Position numbers and translations under genes: made by a program. Source: Chthonomonadaceae bacterium (GTDB taxonomy: Bacteria > Armatimonadota > Chthonomonadetes > Chthonomonadales > Chthonomonadaceae). Taken from it: a stretch of DNA of 36,810 nucleotides. Positions 22,463 to 27,378 of this stretch are shown here, one piece after another. How positions within the stretch are numbered: the first letter of the stretch is position 1; each line of letters begins with the position of its first letter. Location of the stretch: NCBI GenBank assembly GCA_027450145.1, contig DAIDKH010000043.1, positions 1-36,810 on the forward strand. The letters are read 5' to 3'. The notes under the pieces are model-generated. The model saw only the letters and a program-made list of their open reading frames with translations, made no database searches and had not been told where the DNA came from.

Positions 22463-22486
22463 CGATGGACCTCCTTAGATTGGGCT

Positions 22487-22515
22487 ATTGTACCCTAACC
22501 ACAAGCAAATATCAA
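22487..22515 (-). promoter_or_regulatory. Sigma-70-type promoter of rpsT
   Basis: TTGATA (22510-22515) and TACAAT (22487-22492), read on the minus strand, are 17 bases apart and each matches consensus at 5 of 6 positions. The start codon lies 24 bases beyond the -10 box. Confidence 0.8.
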
Positions 22516-22519
22516 GCTT

Positions 22520-22938
22520 GCTTGAATGAGGTCTCCTACCGATCGTTGTGTACCTATAAAGCCGCATCTAAATATGCAATGACGAGTTGGCAGCATATTG
22601 ACCAGACGGATATTCTGGTTATAAAGCTATGAGGAATTTTTAGAGGGATTAAGTGGGTCGAAATGGTTGGTTTCAACGGACTACCTTTATTGTTATATGC
22701 CAACAATTGATTGACATACAACTCTAGTTATCTTGTTCAATTAATGGTAACGATAGAAGGTTTCCGTATTGCGTAATATATAATCGCAATGAAGCGATTT
22801 CGCGCATAATTAGACAGTTTTGTATTAAATCGATTGTAAAATAAAACTATGGGCCGCATATTGCTATTTGTAGTATACTAAATTTGCATCGGTCTATTAT
22901 GTCCGAACACCCTGGATAGTTGAGAGGAGCGGTTACCA
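22520..22938. other. AT-rich intergenic region between rpsT and the polyphosphate-type operon
   Basis: No coding region is supported here. The stretch is visibly AT-rich compared with the genes around it. It holds an inverted repeat ATTGCG (22768-22773) and CGCAAT (22785-22790) flanking a perfect TATAAT (22779-22784) that has no good -35, plus a short palindrome GCGATTTCGC nearby. A TATACT at 22874-22879 is a possible -10 for the operon that starts at 22939, again without a convincing -35. A TTGACA also occurs near 22711. The repeat could be an operator. Confidence 0.45.
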
Positions 22939-23391
22939 GTGAACATTGTGGTACTAGGTTGCGGGCGCGTTGGCTCCACCTTCGCCCGAATGATGCATCG
23001 CGACGGGCATAACGTAACGGTAATTGATATCCAGAGTGAGGCGTTTCGGCGCTTAGGGTCTAAGTTTAGAGGTAACAGAATCGTAGGAAATGGAATTGAT
23101 GAAGACGTTCTGAAGCGGGCGGGAATTGAGACCGCCGACGTGTTTGTTGCGGCAACGCAGGGTGACAACCGTAACATTATGGCCGCTCAAATAGCGCAGC
23201 GGGTGTTTAAGGTAGAACGCGTCATCGCCAGGATTTATGATCCCGTTCGAGCTGACCGCTATCGTCAGTTAGGAATTGTAACGCTGTGTACCACCACCAT
23301 CGCATCGGGTTTATTGCGTGATTTTGTCACGACCAATGAGTGGGGGCTGGACAAAGACTACTCTGCCGAATATCTGCGGCTGAACGTTTAG
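22939..23391 (+). CDS. RCK/TrkA-N potassium channel regulatory protein (single domain)
   Basis: A 150-residue protein from GTG 22939 with AGGAG upstream. NIVVLGCGRVGST at the start is the Rossmann glycine loop, VIDIQ supplies the acidic residue at the end of strand 2, and NGIDEDVLKRAGI and VFVAATQGDNRNIMAAQ are typical TrkA-N/RCK segments. The C-terminal RCK_C (TrkA_C) domain is missing. These proteins bind NAD(H) or nucleotides and gate Trk/Ktr potassium transporters. It is the first gene of a compact seven-gene operon, and the next gene starts 14 bases on. No membrane subunit is in the window. Confidence 0.9.
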   Translation: MNIVVLGCGRVGSTFARMMHRDGHNVTVIDIQSEAFRRLGSKFRGNRIVGNGIDEDVLKRAGIETADVFVAATQGDNRNIMAAQIAQRVFKVERVIARIYDPVRADRYRQLGIVTLCTTTIASGLLRDFVTTNEWGLDKDYSAEYLRLNV

Positions 23392-23405
23392 GGAGAACTA
23401 ACTGC

Positions 23406-24065
23406 ATGTATGTGATTATAGTTGGCGGCGGTAATGTTGGCTACTATTTGGCAAAGACACTCGCCGATGAACGGCATGAGGTGTTATTACTGGAAAAAGA
23501 CCGTACCCGCTATCGCACGATTTCCGAGGAGTTGGGTGAGCTGGTCATGCAGGGCGACGGATGCGAAGTGGCCATACAATCGCAGGCGGGATTTGGGCGC
23601 GCAGATGCCGTAGTCGCAGTGACAGGTAGCGACGACGACAATCTCGTTGTGTGCCAGATGTCTAAAATGGAGCACAATGTACCACGTACTATCTCCCGAG
23701 TAAATGATCCGCGTAATGAGAAGCTTTTTCATGAACTCGGTATAGATGCAACTGTTAGCTCTACTAAGATTATCTATAACCTGTTAGAGCAAGAGGTTGG
23801 CGGCGGTGAGGTAATTCCGCTGGCGGCACTTAATCGCGGGAACATTGAGATTGTTGAAATTGAGATTAGTGCTAGGGCTCCTGTTTTGGGCCACGAGATA
23901 AAGCAGCTGCAAATGCCGCAGGAAGCGCTAATAATCTCGGTATTAAGGGACGACCATGCCATTCTGCCGTCGGGGGATACCCAGCTCGAGGCTGGCGATA
24001 AAATAATCGTATTGGTTCGTGCTGATCAGGAACACTCCCTTCGCGACATTTTTGCCGAGGATTAA
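23406..24065 (+). CDS. TrkA family protein with RCK_N and RCK_C domains
   Basis: A 219-residue protein. ATG 23406 is chosen because MYVIIVGGGNVGYYLA then begins directly with the nucleotide-binding strand; the longer open frame would overlap the previous gene in another frame. The Rossmann domain (residues 1-125) includes LLLEKD and VAVTGSDDDNLVVCQMSK. TrkA_C (about 140-219) shows LNRGNIEIVEIEI, LGHEIKQLQMP and AGDKIIVLV. Two TrkA-type proteins in tandem resemble the duplicated RCK units of E. coli TrkA or a CeuA/CvrA-type pair split in two. It regulates potassium uptake by inference. The next gene starts 5 bases after its stop. Confidence 0.92.
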   Translation: MYVIIVGGGNVGYYLAKTLADERHEVLLLEKDRTRYRTISEELGELVMQGDGCEVAIQSQAGFGRADAVVAVTGSDDDNLVVCQMSKMEHNVPRTISRVNDPRNEKLFHELGIDATVSSTKIIYNLLEQEVGGGEVIPLAALNRGNIEIVEIEISARAPVLGHEIKQLQMPQEALIISVLRDDHAILPSGDTQLEAGDKIIVLVRADQEHSLRDIFAED

Positions 24066-24069
24066 GATC

Positions 24070-24519
24070 GTGGGCGACGACAGAGTTTGGTGCGAGTTTG
24101 CGGCGTCAATGTTAGCGCGCCGGCTAGAAAGAATGTTCGCGCTGATGCCAGATGTAATGTCACCAAGCGGAACAGAGCCTATTCATCAAATGCGCGTTTG
24201 GTCGCGCAGGTCCCGTAGTGCATTTGAGTTGATTCTGTGCTGTGATAATTCCAAAGAGACCCAAAAATTGGAAACTGAGCTAAAGCGGGTGGCCTCTACA
24301 CTCTCTAAGGCACGTGATCTTGATGTAATGATCCAGAACCTCGAAGCTCGGACCGCTAAACTGCCCGAGGAGCAACGATCGGGCTTAAATGAATTTGTTG
24401 GACGGCTCAGTGCGCAGAGGATTACGGCCCAACGTGACGTAGAACGTGCTGTGGAACGTGTAAACGAAAAACACGTAATGCAACGCTTCAATGATCTGGT
24501 GGGCCATTGGAGCAAATAA
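24070..24519 (+). CDS. CHAD domain protein, N-terminal half (split CHAD, part 1)
   Basis: A 149-residue all-alpha protein from GTG 24070, with GAGG about 9 bases upstream. HQMRVWSRRSR at residues 39-49 is the first conserved histidine/arginine repeat of CHAD domains, and LKRVASTLSKARDLDVM at about 71-87 is the partner helix with the ARDLDV signature. The protein ends where the linker between the two halves of a normal CHAD domain would be. CHAD domains bind inorganic polyphosphate through a basic surface. The next gene starts one base after its stop and encodes the other half in a different frame. Either the domain is assembled from two chains, or the break is a programmed frameshift or a sequence error. 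Confidence 0.87.
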   Translation: MGDDRVWCEFAASMLARRLERMFALMPDVMSPSGTEPIHQMRVWSRRSRSAFELILCCDNSKETQKLETELKRVASTLSKARDLDVMIQNLEARTAKLPEEQRSGLNEFVGRLSAQRITAQRDVERAVERVNEKHVMQRFNDLVGHWSK

Positions 24520-24520
24520 C

Positions 24521-25066
24521 GTGGCTAAACCGCGACCACTGCCTAAACTTGGCGCGCACGCAGGGGTTTGGACCAATGCCGTAGAAGTTATTTCCACGAG
24601 GCTCCGTGATCTTCTAGACCTATCCCCATGCCTTCAGGATGCTTCGCGCGTCGAGCAGCTTCACGACATGCGTATCGCCGCTCGTCGACTTCGATACTCT
24701 CTCGAGATGTTCGTTGACGTGGTGCCCACTCATCTTGAATGTATCGTCACCGGCGCACTCAGTGCGTGCAAAGAACTGCAGGAATTATTGGGTGCGATCC
24801 ACGATGCAGACGTACTGATGCCACAGCTCGTAGAGCAGCTGCACCGAGAGTCGGAACCCGCGCTGGGCAACGATCAAAATGCCGCACCGTTTGGGGTACA
24901 TTTCATCAACTGGGATGCTTGTACGGGGCTAATATCTACTTGCAAAGATATTATGCTAGAGCGAGACAATGCGTTCGAAAGTGCAAGTGAAATGTGGCGG
25001 CAACACGCTGAATCAGGTGTCTTTGCAGCGCTCACCGAAGCCGTGGGAGACGGAAAAAGTGCGTAA
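24521..25066 (+). CDS. CHAD domain protein, C-terminal half (split CHAD, part 2)
   Basis: A 181-residue protein from GTG 24521, with GGAG eight bases upstream. HDMRIAARRLRYSLEMF at residues 48-64 is the second CHAD repeat, followed by CKELQELLGAIHDADVLM, in which the second conserved acidic/histidine helix appears. Residues 1-45 look like the linker helix that normally precedes repeat 2 in single-chain CHAD proteins. Together with the previous gene it would rebuild one full CHAD domain, which is expected to bind polyphosphate. Its stop overlaps the GTG of the next gene. Confidence 0.87.
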   Translation: MAKPRPLPKLGAHAGVWTNAVEVISTRLRDLLDLSPCLQDASRVEQLHDMRIAARRLRYSLEMFVDVVPTHLECIVTGALSACKELQELLGAIHDADVLMPQLVEQLHRESEPALGNDQNAAPFGVHFINWDACTGLISTCKDIMLERDNAFESASEMWRQHAESGVFAALTEAVGDGKSA

Positions 25067-25727
25067 GCGATCAGCGGAAAATCGAGTACCTGTAGCCAAT
25101 GTACCACGTCGGATGGAGGACATCCCCGGGCTAGGCATCATACGAGCTCGTGGTCTACGCAAAATCGGAATTCAGTCTGTCGCGGATTTGAGGGCTGCGT
25201 CAGTTGAGCTTGTGAGTACCGCACCGGGGCTAACGATTATTAAGGCCAGGCAGGTAGCCGCGTACCTTGAGCAGTTTGACGCGGATCTTCTGCTCACGGC
25301 TGCCGAAAACGAACTGGAGTACGTTCAGGCCAGTGCTCGATCAGAGCAGCTCAAGCAGGAACTGTTACCGCACATTGCGTCGTCTACTCACGACGAACTC
25401 GGGACCGCGGCTCAATTGCTCTCTCTCACCATCCTCAAGGTTATGACCTCACCGGCGGCAGCCGATTTTCGCGGCGCGATTTTCAGACAGTTGGTTCGCC
25501 TGGCTCGACAAGGTCAGAGCGCGCGAGCACTCACATCCGAGCGTCGAAGGGACCGGGCACTGCTGGCAATACATCAGGCAATTGCTGCACTTGCCAAAGT
25601 CGCTACTGCCAACGAGGTAGATCGAAAGGCGCAGGTGCGCCTAGCCGATTCGTTGGAGAGCTATGCTGATACGTTGACCGAATGTCTCGATGACCGAGGA
25701 TCCAATCGAAAGGGCGCCGCTGGCTGA
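25059..25727 (+). CDS. Helix-hairpin-helix protein of unknown function
   Basis: A 222-residue protein. GTG 25059 overlaps the stop of the CHAD-2 gene, with GGGAG upstream. The longer frame would extend deep into that gene and is unlikely. Residues of about 22-75 show two helix-hairpin-helix repeats (IPGLGIIRARGLRKIGI, then APGLTIIKARQVAAYL), which are usually non-specific DNA-backbone or subunit-binding elements. The remainder, about 85-222, is predicted alpha-helical and charged, with no motif that I recognise. Its place between CHAD and Ppx genes suggests a role in the same process, possibly linking polyphosphate to DNA, but this is speculation. Confidence 0.7.
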   Translation: MRKRSAENRVPVANVPRRMEDIPGLGIIRARGLRKIGIQSVADLRAASVELVSTAPGLTIIKARQVAAYLEQFDADLLLTAAENELEYVQASARSEQLKQELLPHIASSTHDELGTAAQLLSLTILKVMTSPAAADFRGAIFRQLVRLARQGQSARALTSERRRDRALLAIHQAIAALAKVATANEVDRKAQVRLADSLESYADTLTECLDDRGSNRKGAAG

Positions 25728-26665
25728 TGACGACCATGAGCAACCGAGTTTGTGCAGCGTTCGACATAGGAACCAATTCGGTAAAATTGCTTGTTGCCGA
25801 TCTTAATGACGGTGTGTCGGTGCTTCATGAGGAGACAGTGGTTACTCGCCTAGGTGCAGGCATGTTGCCAAATAACCCACGTCTATGGGAGTCACCAATG
25901 CATCGCACCATTGAAGCCGTGTCGTCAATGGTTCGAACTGCTCGCAACTTCGGCGTAGGCAACCGGATAACTACCGTTGGTACGGCTGCACTTAGGGAGG
26001 CTGTGAACAGCAATGAATTTGTTGATCGCCTAAAGCAGACATGTGGCCTCGACGTGCGAATTATATCCGGCCAGGAGGAAGCGCGCCTATCGTTCATGGC
26101 GGTTCGACTAGATCCGCTTTGGAGATCTCGTCCAGTTCTCCGCGTTATCGACATTGGTGGAGGAAGCACGGAAATAATTACCGGCACTGTAAATGAGGGC
26201 AAGGAGCCACACCGTACCAGTATTCCACTTGGTGCAGTTAGGCTAACCGAGAGGTTTCTAAAAGCCGATCCGCCAGCAGTAAAGGAATTGGCAGCCGCAA
26301 CTGCGGCAGTGCAAACTGCATTCGACGGCGTCGTATTACCAGATGGAGCCGGTACTGACCTAGTTGGGGTGGGAGGCACTGTCACAAACCTTGCCGCAAT
26401 CACTCAGGGACGGTTCTGTGCGCCCGAAGAGTTGCATGGTTGCGCATTGAGCCTTGAGCAAATTGAGGCGGTAATGAGCCGGCTCGTGGCTTGCACATTG
26501 GAGGAACGAAAACAGGTACCGGGGCTTGATCCAAGGAGAGCCGACATCATTATTGCTGGTGCAATTCTGTTGAATCATACGTTGGGCTGCACCGGTAGTG
26601 CTACTATAGAGGTCTCTACTCGGGGGTTGCGGTGGGGGGTCTTATATGACAGCTTCCTCAGTTAA
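25727..26665 (+). CDS. Ppx/GppA family exopolyphosphatase (catalytic core only)
   Basis: A 312-residue protein of the ASKHA fold. ATG 25727 shares one base with the previous stop (TGATG), and M4 is an alternative. The motifs are FDIGTNSVKLLV (residues 12-23), VGTAALREA, GQEEARLSF, VIDIGGGSTEI (about 141-151) and VGVGGTVTNLAA near 210-221, all of which are phosphate-binding loops of the family. It hydrolyses polyphosphate from the chain end or converts pppGpp to ppGpp. Its length matches proteins without the HD-like C-terminal domain of E. coli Ppx; that domain is the next gene, which overlaps by 20 bases. Confidence 0.94.
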   Translation: MTTMSNRVCAAFDIGTNSVKLLVADLNDGVSVLHEETVVTRLGAGMLPNNPRLWESPMHRTIEAVSSMVRTARNFGVGNRITTVGTAALREAVNSNEFVDRLKQTCGLDVRIISGQEEARLSFMAVRLDPLWRSRPVLRVIDIGGGSTEIITGTVNEGKEPHRTSIPLGAVRLTERFLKADPPAVKELAAATAAVQTAFDGVVLPDGAGTDLVGVGGTVTNLAAITQGRFCAPEELHGCALSLEQIEAVMSRLVACTLEERKQVPGLDPRRADIIIAGAILLNHTLGCTGSATIEVSTRGLRWGVLYDSFLS

Positions 26666-27299
26666 CGTGCCGGTACAATGTACCGACCACGATGTTCAAG
26701 AGAAAATTACTGCACGCCGTCGGGAGGCAATTCTCTCGCTTGCCGACAGATATACTTACGATAAAGCACATTCACATCAGGTCGAGTGCCTTGCAGGCAG
26801 CCTGTTTTTAGCCTTAGAACCGCTCCACAAACTTGGTGCGCACGAGCGGCGATTATTAGAATATGCCGCCATACTGCATGATATCGGTTACTTTCTTTGT
26901 GCCAAGAGCCACCATAAACACGTGCTTCAACTAGTTATGACGGAGCCCTTATCGGAATTTACCCGTGGCGAAAAGGGTGTCATTGCAAACGTGGCACGGT
27001 ATCATCGCAAGGCGCTTCCTTCCCCAATGCATACACTATTCGCTGTGTTAAGCGATGAGGATCAACATAGGGTCTTGTTGCTTGCGCCCATCTTGCGCAT
27101 AGCGGATGCTCTCGATCGATCCCACCAGGGAGCGGTGGAGGAACTACGGGTCGAGACTACGGACGACGCGGTTCACCTTTATATTGTTGCAAAATCGGAC
27201 ATTTCCATTGAATGTGAAGCCGTGAACCGCAAGGGTGATATGTTCAGGCAGATTTATGGGCGAGACATCGTTGTACACGTACAATCTACCGGGAAATAA
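26646..27299 (+). CDS. HD domain protein resembling the C-terminal domain of Ppx/GppA
   Basis: A 217-residue protein overlapping the ppx-like gene by 20 bases. AHSHQVECLA holds the first histidine, ILHDIGYF holds the HD pair (H78, D79), YHRKALP and RIADALDRSH (D154) complete the metal site, and KSHHKH near 88-92 is also conserved. This matches the HD-like domain III of Ppx/GppA rather than a typical signalling HD protein. It may act with the ppx-like product in trans. It is the last gene of the operon and is followed by a terminator-like hairpin. Confidence 0.9.
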   Translation: MTASSVNVPVQCTDHDVQEKITARRREAILSLADRYTYDKAHSHQVECLAGSLFLALEPLHKLGAHERRLLEYAAILHDIGYFLCAKSHHKHVLQLVMTEPLSEFTRGEKGVIANVARYHRKALPSPMHTLFAVLSDEDQHRVLLLAPILRIADALDRSHQGAVEELRVETTDDAVHLYIVAKSDISIECEAVNRKGDMFRQIYGRDIVVHVQSTGK

Positions 27300-27356: not shown

Positions 27357-27378
27357 ACGGTGGCACGCCGTGATTTTT
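27357..27378 (+). terminator. Rho-independent terminator of the CHAD/Ppx operon
   Basis: ACGGTG (27357-27362) pairs with CGCCGT (27366-27371) over a 3-base loop and is followed by GATTTTT. A second hairpin, CAGCCT/AGGCTG (27379-27398), comes immediately after it. Confidence 0.55.

Follow-up and report, generated by a model that had tools for sequence, protein, structure and literature searches.

The stretch of DNA analysed here (the window, 36,810 nucleotides) is one contig, DAIDKH010000043.1, of the 4.14 Mb genome (G000) of a Chthonomonadaceae bacterium, and our subject is a block of seven genes on its + strand (22939–27299) that places a pair of RCK proteins beside split CHAD and Ppx/GppA proteins and a helix-hairpin-helix (HhH) protein. 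A sequence-only reading had described a same-strand block with gaps of 1–14 bases or overlaps between genes, and this was borne out by the open reading frame (ORF) map, which confirmed all seven ORFs, and by Pfam, which supports every family. With the likely starts, the successive spacings are 14, 4 and 1 bases, followed by overlaps of 8, 1 and 20 bases. The block opens with RckA (22939..23391), a TM1088A-like RCK protein of 150 residues with TrkA_N only (Pfam 2.2e-28), and RckB (23406..24065), a TM1088B-like protein of 219 residues with both TrkA_N (2e-27) and TrkA_C (5e-16). Two half-CHAD proteins follow, the N-terminal ChadN (24070..24519; first four-helix bundle, CHAD profile positions 2–132) and the C-terminal ChadC (24521..25066; second bundle, profile positions 142–224), the latter starting at GTG 24521 with an alternative ATG at 24491. 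The HhH protein (25059..25727, 222 residues; HHH_5 1e-6) has an N-terminal tandem HhH and a C-terminal helical bundle, and starts at GTG 25059, a longer ORF being possible from 24969. The last two genes encode Ppx (25727..26665, 312 residues), a short Ppx/GppA-family phosphatase with domains I–II only (PF02541, 2.5e-56), and HD3 (26646..27299), a free-standing Ppx/GppA domain III with an HD fold (Ppx-GppA_III 1.5e-22). All the families first assigned were therefore recovered by Pfam, with two amendments, namely that the protein initially called "HD" is domain III of Ppx/GppA and that RckA is without a TrkA_C half. The former amendment means that Ppx, like CHAD, is split, so that two normally single proteins are divided in this block, CHAD between its bundles and Ppx/GppA between domains I–II and III.

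Gene order in relatives had been named beforehand as one of the points on which the proposed unit could fail, and when we looked, the order was kept across the Chthonomonadaceae. From related genomes we took the loci that surround Ppx, CHAD or the RCK pair and mapped their genes with profiles built from the window; family f1 is the Chthonomonadaceae (of the little-studied phylum Armatimonadota), and f2, f3, f5 and so on are other family labels in the genome set. The order RckA-RckB-CHAD-HhH-Ppx-HD3 recurs across f1. RckB leads directly to CHAD in 14 of the 15 f1 genomes with an assembled RCK pair (the exception is G009; G016 was counted from match positions), CHAD leads directly to HhH in all 16 checkable genomes, and HhH to the short Ppx in 14 of 16 (G004 and G009 being the exceptions), while HD3 comes after Ppx in 13 genomes and was not seen there in G003, G009 and G011. 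The unit is broken in two in G004 (RCK-CHAD-HhH) and G009 (RCK-Ppx), and even there the RCK pair stays with a polyphosphate gene; an RCK-CHAD or RCK-Ppx adjacency is present in every assessable Chthonomonadaceae genome. The flanking genes, HolA/S20 upstream and MqnX-like downstream, are common to members of the same genus only, on which ground recent common ancestry was rejected as the explanation of the conserved order. With the order kept throughout the family and the flanks reshuffled, the block is a conserved unit and more than a chance arrangement. The type species of the Chthonomonadaceae is reported to have a disorganised, operon-poor genome with scattered pathways (PMC4959169). A scan of 84,980 named genomes for the HhH family with one narrow peptide pattern returned 7 loci, 5 from Chthonomonas/Chthonomonadaceae, 1 from Armatimonadetes and 1 from a "bacterium".

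Linkage of the RCK pair to polyphosphate genes extends beyond the family. Genome G017 (f2) has a single run of KimA, STAS/Usp, RckA, RckB, two thymidylate-kinase-like genes, ChadN, ChadC, HhH, Ppx, HD3 and a long Ppx. In f5 the RCK pair adjoins Ppx on its downstream side, as ChadN-ChadC-Ppx-RckA-RckB in G059 and Ppx-RckA-RckB in G032. A tree of the concatenated RCK pair did not group the f5 rows with those of f1 and f2, the rows linked to polyphosphate genes were united in none of 200 bootstrap trees, and the linkage needed three label changes, although the tree also accommodates an ancestral linkage followed by losses. By a rough estimate, not a computed one, chance would place the pair on the same strand next to one of about four polyphosphate genes in ~0.1% of genomes. 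Two tandem thymidylate-kinase-like genes lie directly 5' of CHAD in both G017 (f2) and G009 (f1) (L051:4699-6158, L098:3957-5443), and may be part of a wider polyphosphate gene set; the window is without them.

Both CHAD halves scored above the cut-off for CHAD (PF05235), and the two four-helix bundles are not in one chain, the halves being separate genes in different frames. The halves keep most of the residues shown by mutation to bind polyphosphate. ChadN H39, R42, R46 and R82 are the equivalents of CtCHAD H253, R256, R260 and R296, and ChadC R58/Y59 are those of CtCHAD R418/Y419; among aligned split homologues, R42, R46 and R82 do not vary in 10 proteins, nor R58/Y59 in 11; the equivalent of CtCHAD K441 is also kept, and that of R438 is S. 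Apart from the substitution at this last position, the residues are consistent with the original suggestion that CHAD binds polyphosphate here, and the halves may well do so. ChadN and ChadC align with each other over their length (probability 98), which suggests that each is probably a complete bundle, and since 8 of the 17 family genomes encode the same region as a single gene, the halves probably act together as one unit. The tree of split versus fused CHAD was poorly resolved, with at least two changes forced. A sequencing error behind the split was rejected, as the junction is identical in the congener G001, with its stop, gap of one base and alternative start. CHAD domains, or phosins, bind polyphosphate, and stand-alone CHAD proteins are often found in operons with polyphosphate enzymes (Lorenzo-Orts 2019, PMC6537752). 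Those described here belong to the same Pfam family and retain the binding residues, but their bundles are separate proteins, and the portion of that paper available to us describes no RCK or HhH partner.

Ppx matched TIGR03706 at 8e-65 with 219 bits, which is below the curated cut-off of 307, and its best PDB match was the exopolyphosphatase 2j4r (3.7e-38), with a full-length alignment to the short exopolyphosphatases 2j4r/1t6c. It also matched the pppGpp phosphatase 6pc0 (E 1e-29). As judged from these matches, Ppx is closest to the exopolyphosphatase type and is not a clear member of the TIGR03706 group, and its earlier placement in the Ppx/GppA family, whose members act on polyphosphate or pppGpp, was upheld. 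HD3 was best matched in the PDB by domain III of the exopolyphosphatase 8jgo/8jgt (3.3e-23), and this, with the Ppx-GppA_III match, led us to reject an unrelated HD hydrolase. Its H...HD...D motif is intact (H42, H78-D79, H120 and D154 are kept in 20 of 20 homologues), so HD3 may be hydrolytically active and not only a chain holder. Full-length Ppx/GppA exopolyphosphatases (E. coli PPX 1u6z, 8jgo) likewise have domains I–II and III, whereas here two overlapping genes encode them separately, and the HD of HD3 is HE in 8jgo. In many relatives a full-length Ppx of 518–549 residues directly follows HD3 (L037, L042, L043, L047, L049, L051, L053). HD3 as a recent copy from this neighbouring long Ppx was not supported, as a well-supported branch of the tree lies between HD3 and the domain III of the long Ppx. 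The window genome has a separate long Ppx on another contig (G000:C8:60476-61402) and encodes PPK1 elsewhere.

The HhH protein was characterised from its homologues and a predicted structure. HHH_5 was present in 17 of 17 homologues, with tandem HhH and glycine hairpins, and an AlphaFold2 model had a mean predicted local distance difference test score of 88, in which residues 17–73 matched the HhH domains of UvrC and RadA/Rad51 (Z ~9). The C-terminal helical bundle had no clear relative, Foldseek returning no match at E <= 0.001. That this bundle is a third half-CHAD was not supported (hhalign probabilities of 9 and 0.1); no CHAD was shown in the structure listings, a result that does not of itself exclude a CHAD relation.

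The RCK pair most closely resembles a known K+-gating ring. The best PDB matches of RckA and RckB were TM1088A (3l4b_A, 5.7e-27) and TM1088B (3l4b_C, 7.6e-35), the subunits of an octameric TrkA gating ring of Thermotoga maritima (PDB 3l4b) whose partner is TrkH, TM1089 (PMC4380455); AMP is bound in the TM1088 assembly. In both systems a short RCK protein with TrkA_N only lies side by side with a longer protein that has TrkA_N and TrkA_C (150 and 219 residues here). However, TM1088A/B has TrkH as its partner, whereas in G000 TrkH is absent and the pair shares an operon with polyphosphate genes. TrkH (PF02386) was not found in G000 and was missing from 59 of 61 genomes, with positives in 2, in a search whose control was positive in 11 of 14 known genomes. 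Kup and Ion_trans_2 also had no match in G000. The potassium-gating role first ascribed to these proteins is thus favoured by their likeness to K+-gating rings, but the Trk-like gate that it implied is not, as TrkH is absent and a KimA-type permease is a better candidate. CeoB-CeoC of Mycobacterium tuberculosis, which are reported to take part in K+ uptake (PMC6375644), are also paired TrkA proteins, a likeness drawn from their description; no polyphosphate genes are mentioned for CeoBC in the part of that source at hand. The motif (I/L)(I/L)x2DxRx5N(I/L)(I/L) of RCK_C domains that bind cyclic di-AMP (c-di-AMP) (PMC10117811) occurred in 0 of 33 RckB proteins, and Rfam gave no family match, and no ydaO c-di-AMP riboswitch, in the region upstream of RckA. 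Control of RckB by c-di-AMP, or of the operon by an upstream ydaO riboswitch, was rejected on these grounds. In f16 (G043 and G056; L087, L088) the RCK pair adjoins MreB-like and EPSP/MurA-like genes.

G000 encodes KdpA and one KimA-type permease, the latter away from the operon, and this permease is the best candidate partner of the RCK pair. A KimA-type query from G017 matched the solved KimA K+/H+ symporter (PDB 6s3k) at 9.5e-135, and KimA adjoins the RCK pair in f2 (G017), f3 (G018, G020, G021, G024), f7 (G048) and f17 (G044). Bacillus KimA is reported to be under c-di-AMP control, whereas here control would be by an RCK ring. Within f1, G011 has KimA and STAS/Usp genes next to the cassette but on the other strand (L035:1-9495), so the KimA linkage is not limited to f2. 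A protein with STAS and Usp domains is encoded directly 5' of RckA in f2 and f3 (L081, L094, L051); KimA and the RCK pair may have in it an additional regulator. In Streptomyces venezuelae, the KimA-like Vnz_27465 and the RCK_C protein Vnz_27460 have neighbouring locus numbers (PMC10117811), hinting at a KimA-RCK pairing outside Armatimonadota.

The 476 bases between RckA and the divergent upstream gene, which we take from reading its sequence to be ribosomal protein S20-like, form the presumed promoter region in the ORF map (22463..22938). A consensus promoter scan showed no prominent internal promoter, with no excess over shuffles, so one may be missed. The terminator-like hairpin reported at the end of the unit was found by consensus scan on the + strand at 27357..27371, followed by GATTTTTCAG (a T run), such sites being about twice as frequent in the region as in shuffles (9 versus 4.4 expected).

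All seven genes are under purifying selection, of clearly different strengths. RckA and RckB are 97% identical to those of the congener G001 (window 22939-24065 versus L033:1262-2388), and the other five genes 61–80%. The ratios of non-synonymous to synonymous differences per site (pN/pS) against G001 were 0.02 for RckA and 0.03 for RckB, compared with 0.17–0.32 for the other five; the low values fit tight RCK structural interfaces.

The reading that we favour, at roughly even odds, is of a conserved polyphosphate-turnover operon co-expressed with a cytosolic K+-gating ring that regulates K+ uptake, the shared operon suggesting that uptake and turnover are controlled together. ChadN and ChadC would pair to rebuild one CHAD domain holding polyphosphate or a granule surface, from which the short Ppx would remove terminal phosphates. 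HD3, a domain present in cis in fused Ppx enzymes, would work alongside Ppx in trans, either holding the chain or serving as a second hydrolytic module. The tandem HhH, being of a DNA-binding type, could tether the assembly to the nucleoid, although as a role for this protein that is a guess. RckA and RckB would form a nucleotide-binding ring of the TM1088A/B type and would set the level of K+ uptake by acting on a membrane protein whose gene lies outside the operon, the KimA-type permease being the most likely one. Inside the cell the large polyphosphate anion has to be balanced by cations, with K+ as a counter-ion, and through co-expression K+ uptake would keep pace with the synthesis and breakdown of this polyanion; our literature search found no support for K+ in that capacity.

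Several observations weigh against this reading. Most of the phylum has the RCK pair beside unrelated genes and unlinked to polyphosphate genes. G043, G051 and G056 have the pair with neither a TrkH nor a KimA match, which indicates that KimA is not a universal partner. The isoelectric points of HhH homologues range from 5.1 to 10.4, leaving DNA tethering weakly supported, and the pN/pS of RckAB, far below that of the other five genes, is a mild argument against tight co-evolution with the polyphosphate genes. The phylum-wide distribution and the very different evolutionary rate of RckAB, together with family f24, in which CHAD-HhH(-Ppx) is present without RCK, would be expected if CHAD-HhH-Ppx-HD3 were the true module and RckAB housekeeping genes sharing only its promoter, with no functional link. 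We rate this neighbourhood of convenience as a serious contender, somewhat short of even; the persistence of an RCK-CHAD or RCK-Ppx adjacency even in the split cassettes of G004 and G009, and the second RCK-Ppx linkage in f5, argue against it.

More specific forms of coupling are less probable. We regard as unlikely the full scheme in which a TrkH-free TM1088-type ring controls a KimA-type permease and in which the divided CHAD and exopolyphosphatase subunits make up a complex that binds and degrades polyphosphate and gives the ring its signal. Still more doubtful is a direct complex, in which the ring would sense either polyphosphate itself, by way of CHAD, or what Ppx/HD3 produce, so that the polyphosphate level would gate K+ transport: the conserved adjacency of RCK and CHAD genes and the binding of nucleotides by RCK rings, such as the AMP of TM1088, speak for it, but adjacency proves no contact, RCK was not seen fused to CHAD or Ppx, and the evolutionary rates differ sharply. 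Least probable is a (p)ppGpp module, in which Ppx would be a pppGpp phosphatase of the GppA type, HD3 would hydrolyse nucleotides and CHAD would be incidental; this reading draws on the 6pc0 match and on the frequent hydrolysis of nucleotides by HD folds, but runs counter to the closer exopolyphosphatase models and structures (TIGR03706, 2j4r), the polyphosphate-binding residues of the neighbouring CHAD proteins and the separate long Ppx in the genome.

All the parts of this operon are known families; what sets it apart is that their combination is conserved, that the RCK pair has a KimA candidate but no TrkH, and that CHAD and Ppx are both split. A literature search for CHAD with TrkA in an operon found none, nor was the combination found described, and we are not aware of any bacterial system described as linking polyphosphate turnover to K+ transport. 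Returning to our favoured reading of joint control, the conserved operon and the second linkage in another family make a concrete candidate for polyphosphate-K+ coupling. In addition, with the RCK pair common in a mostly TrkH-less phylum and KimA beside it in four families, RCK control of KimA-type secondary transporters becomes testable. If RCK rings do regulate KimA, this would bear on which membrane protein serves other paired TrkA proteins, such as the mycobacterial CeoBC.

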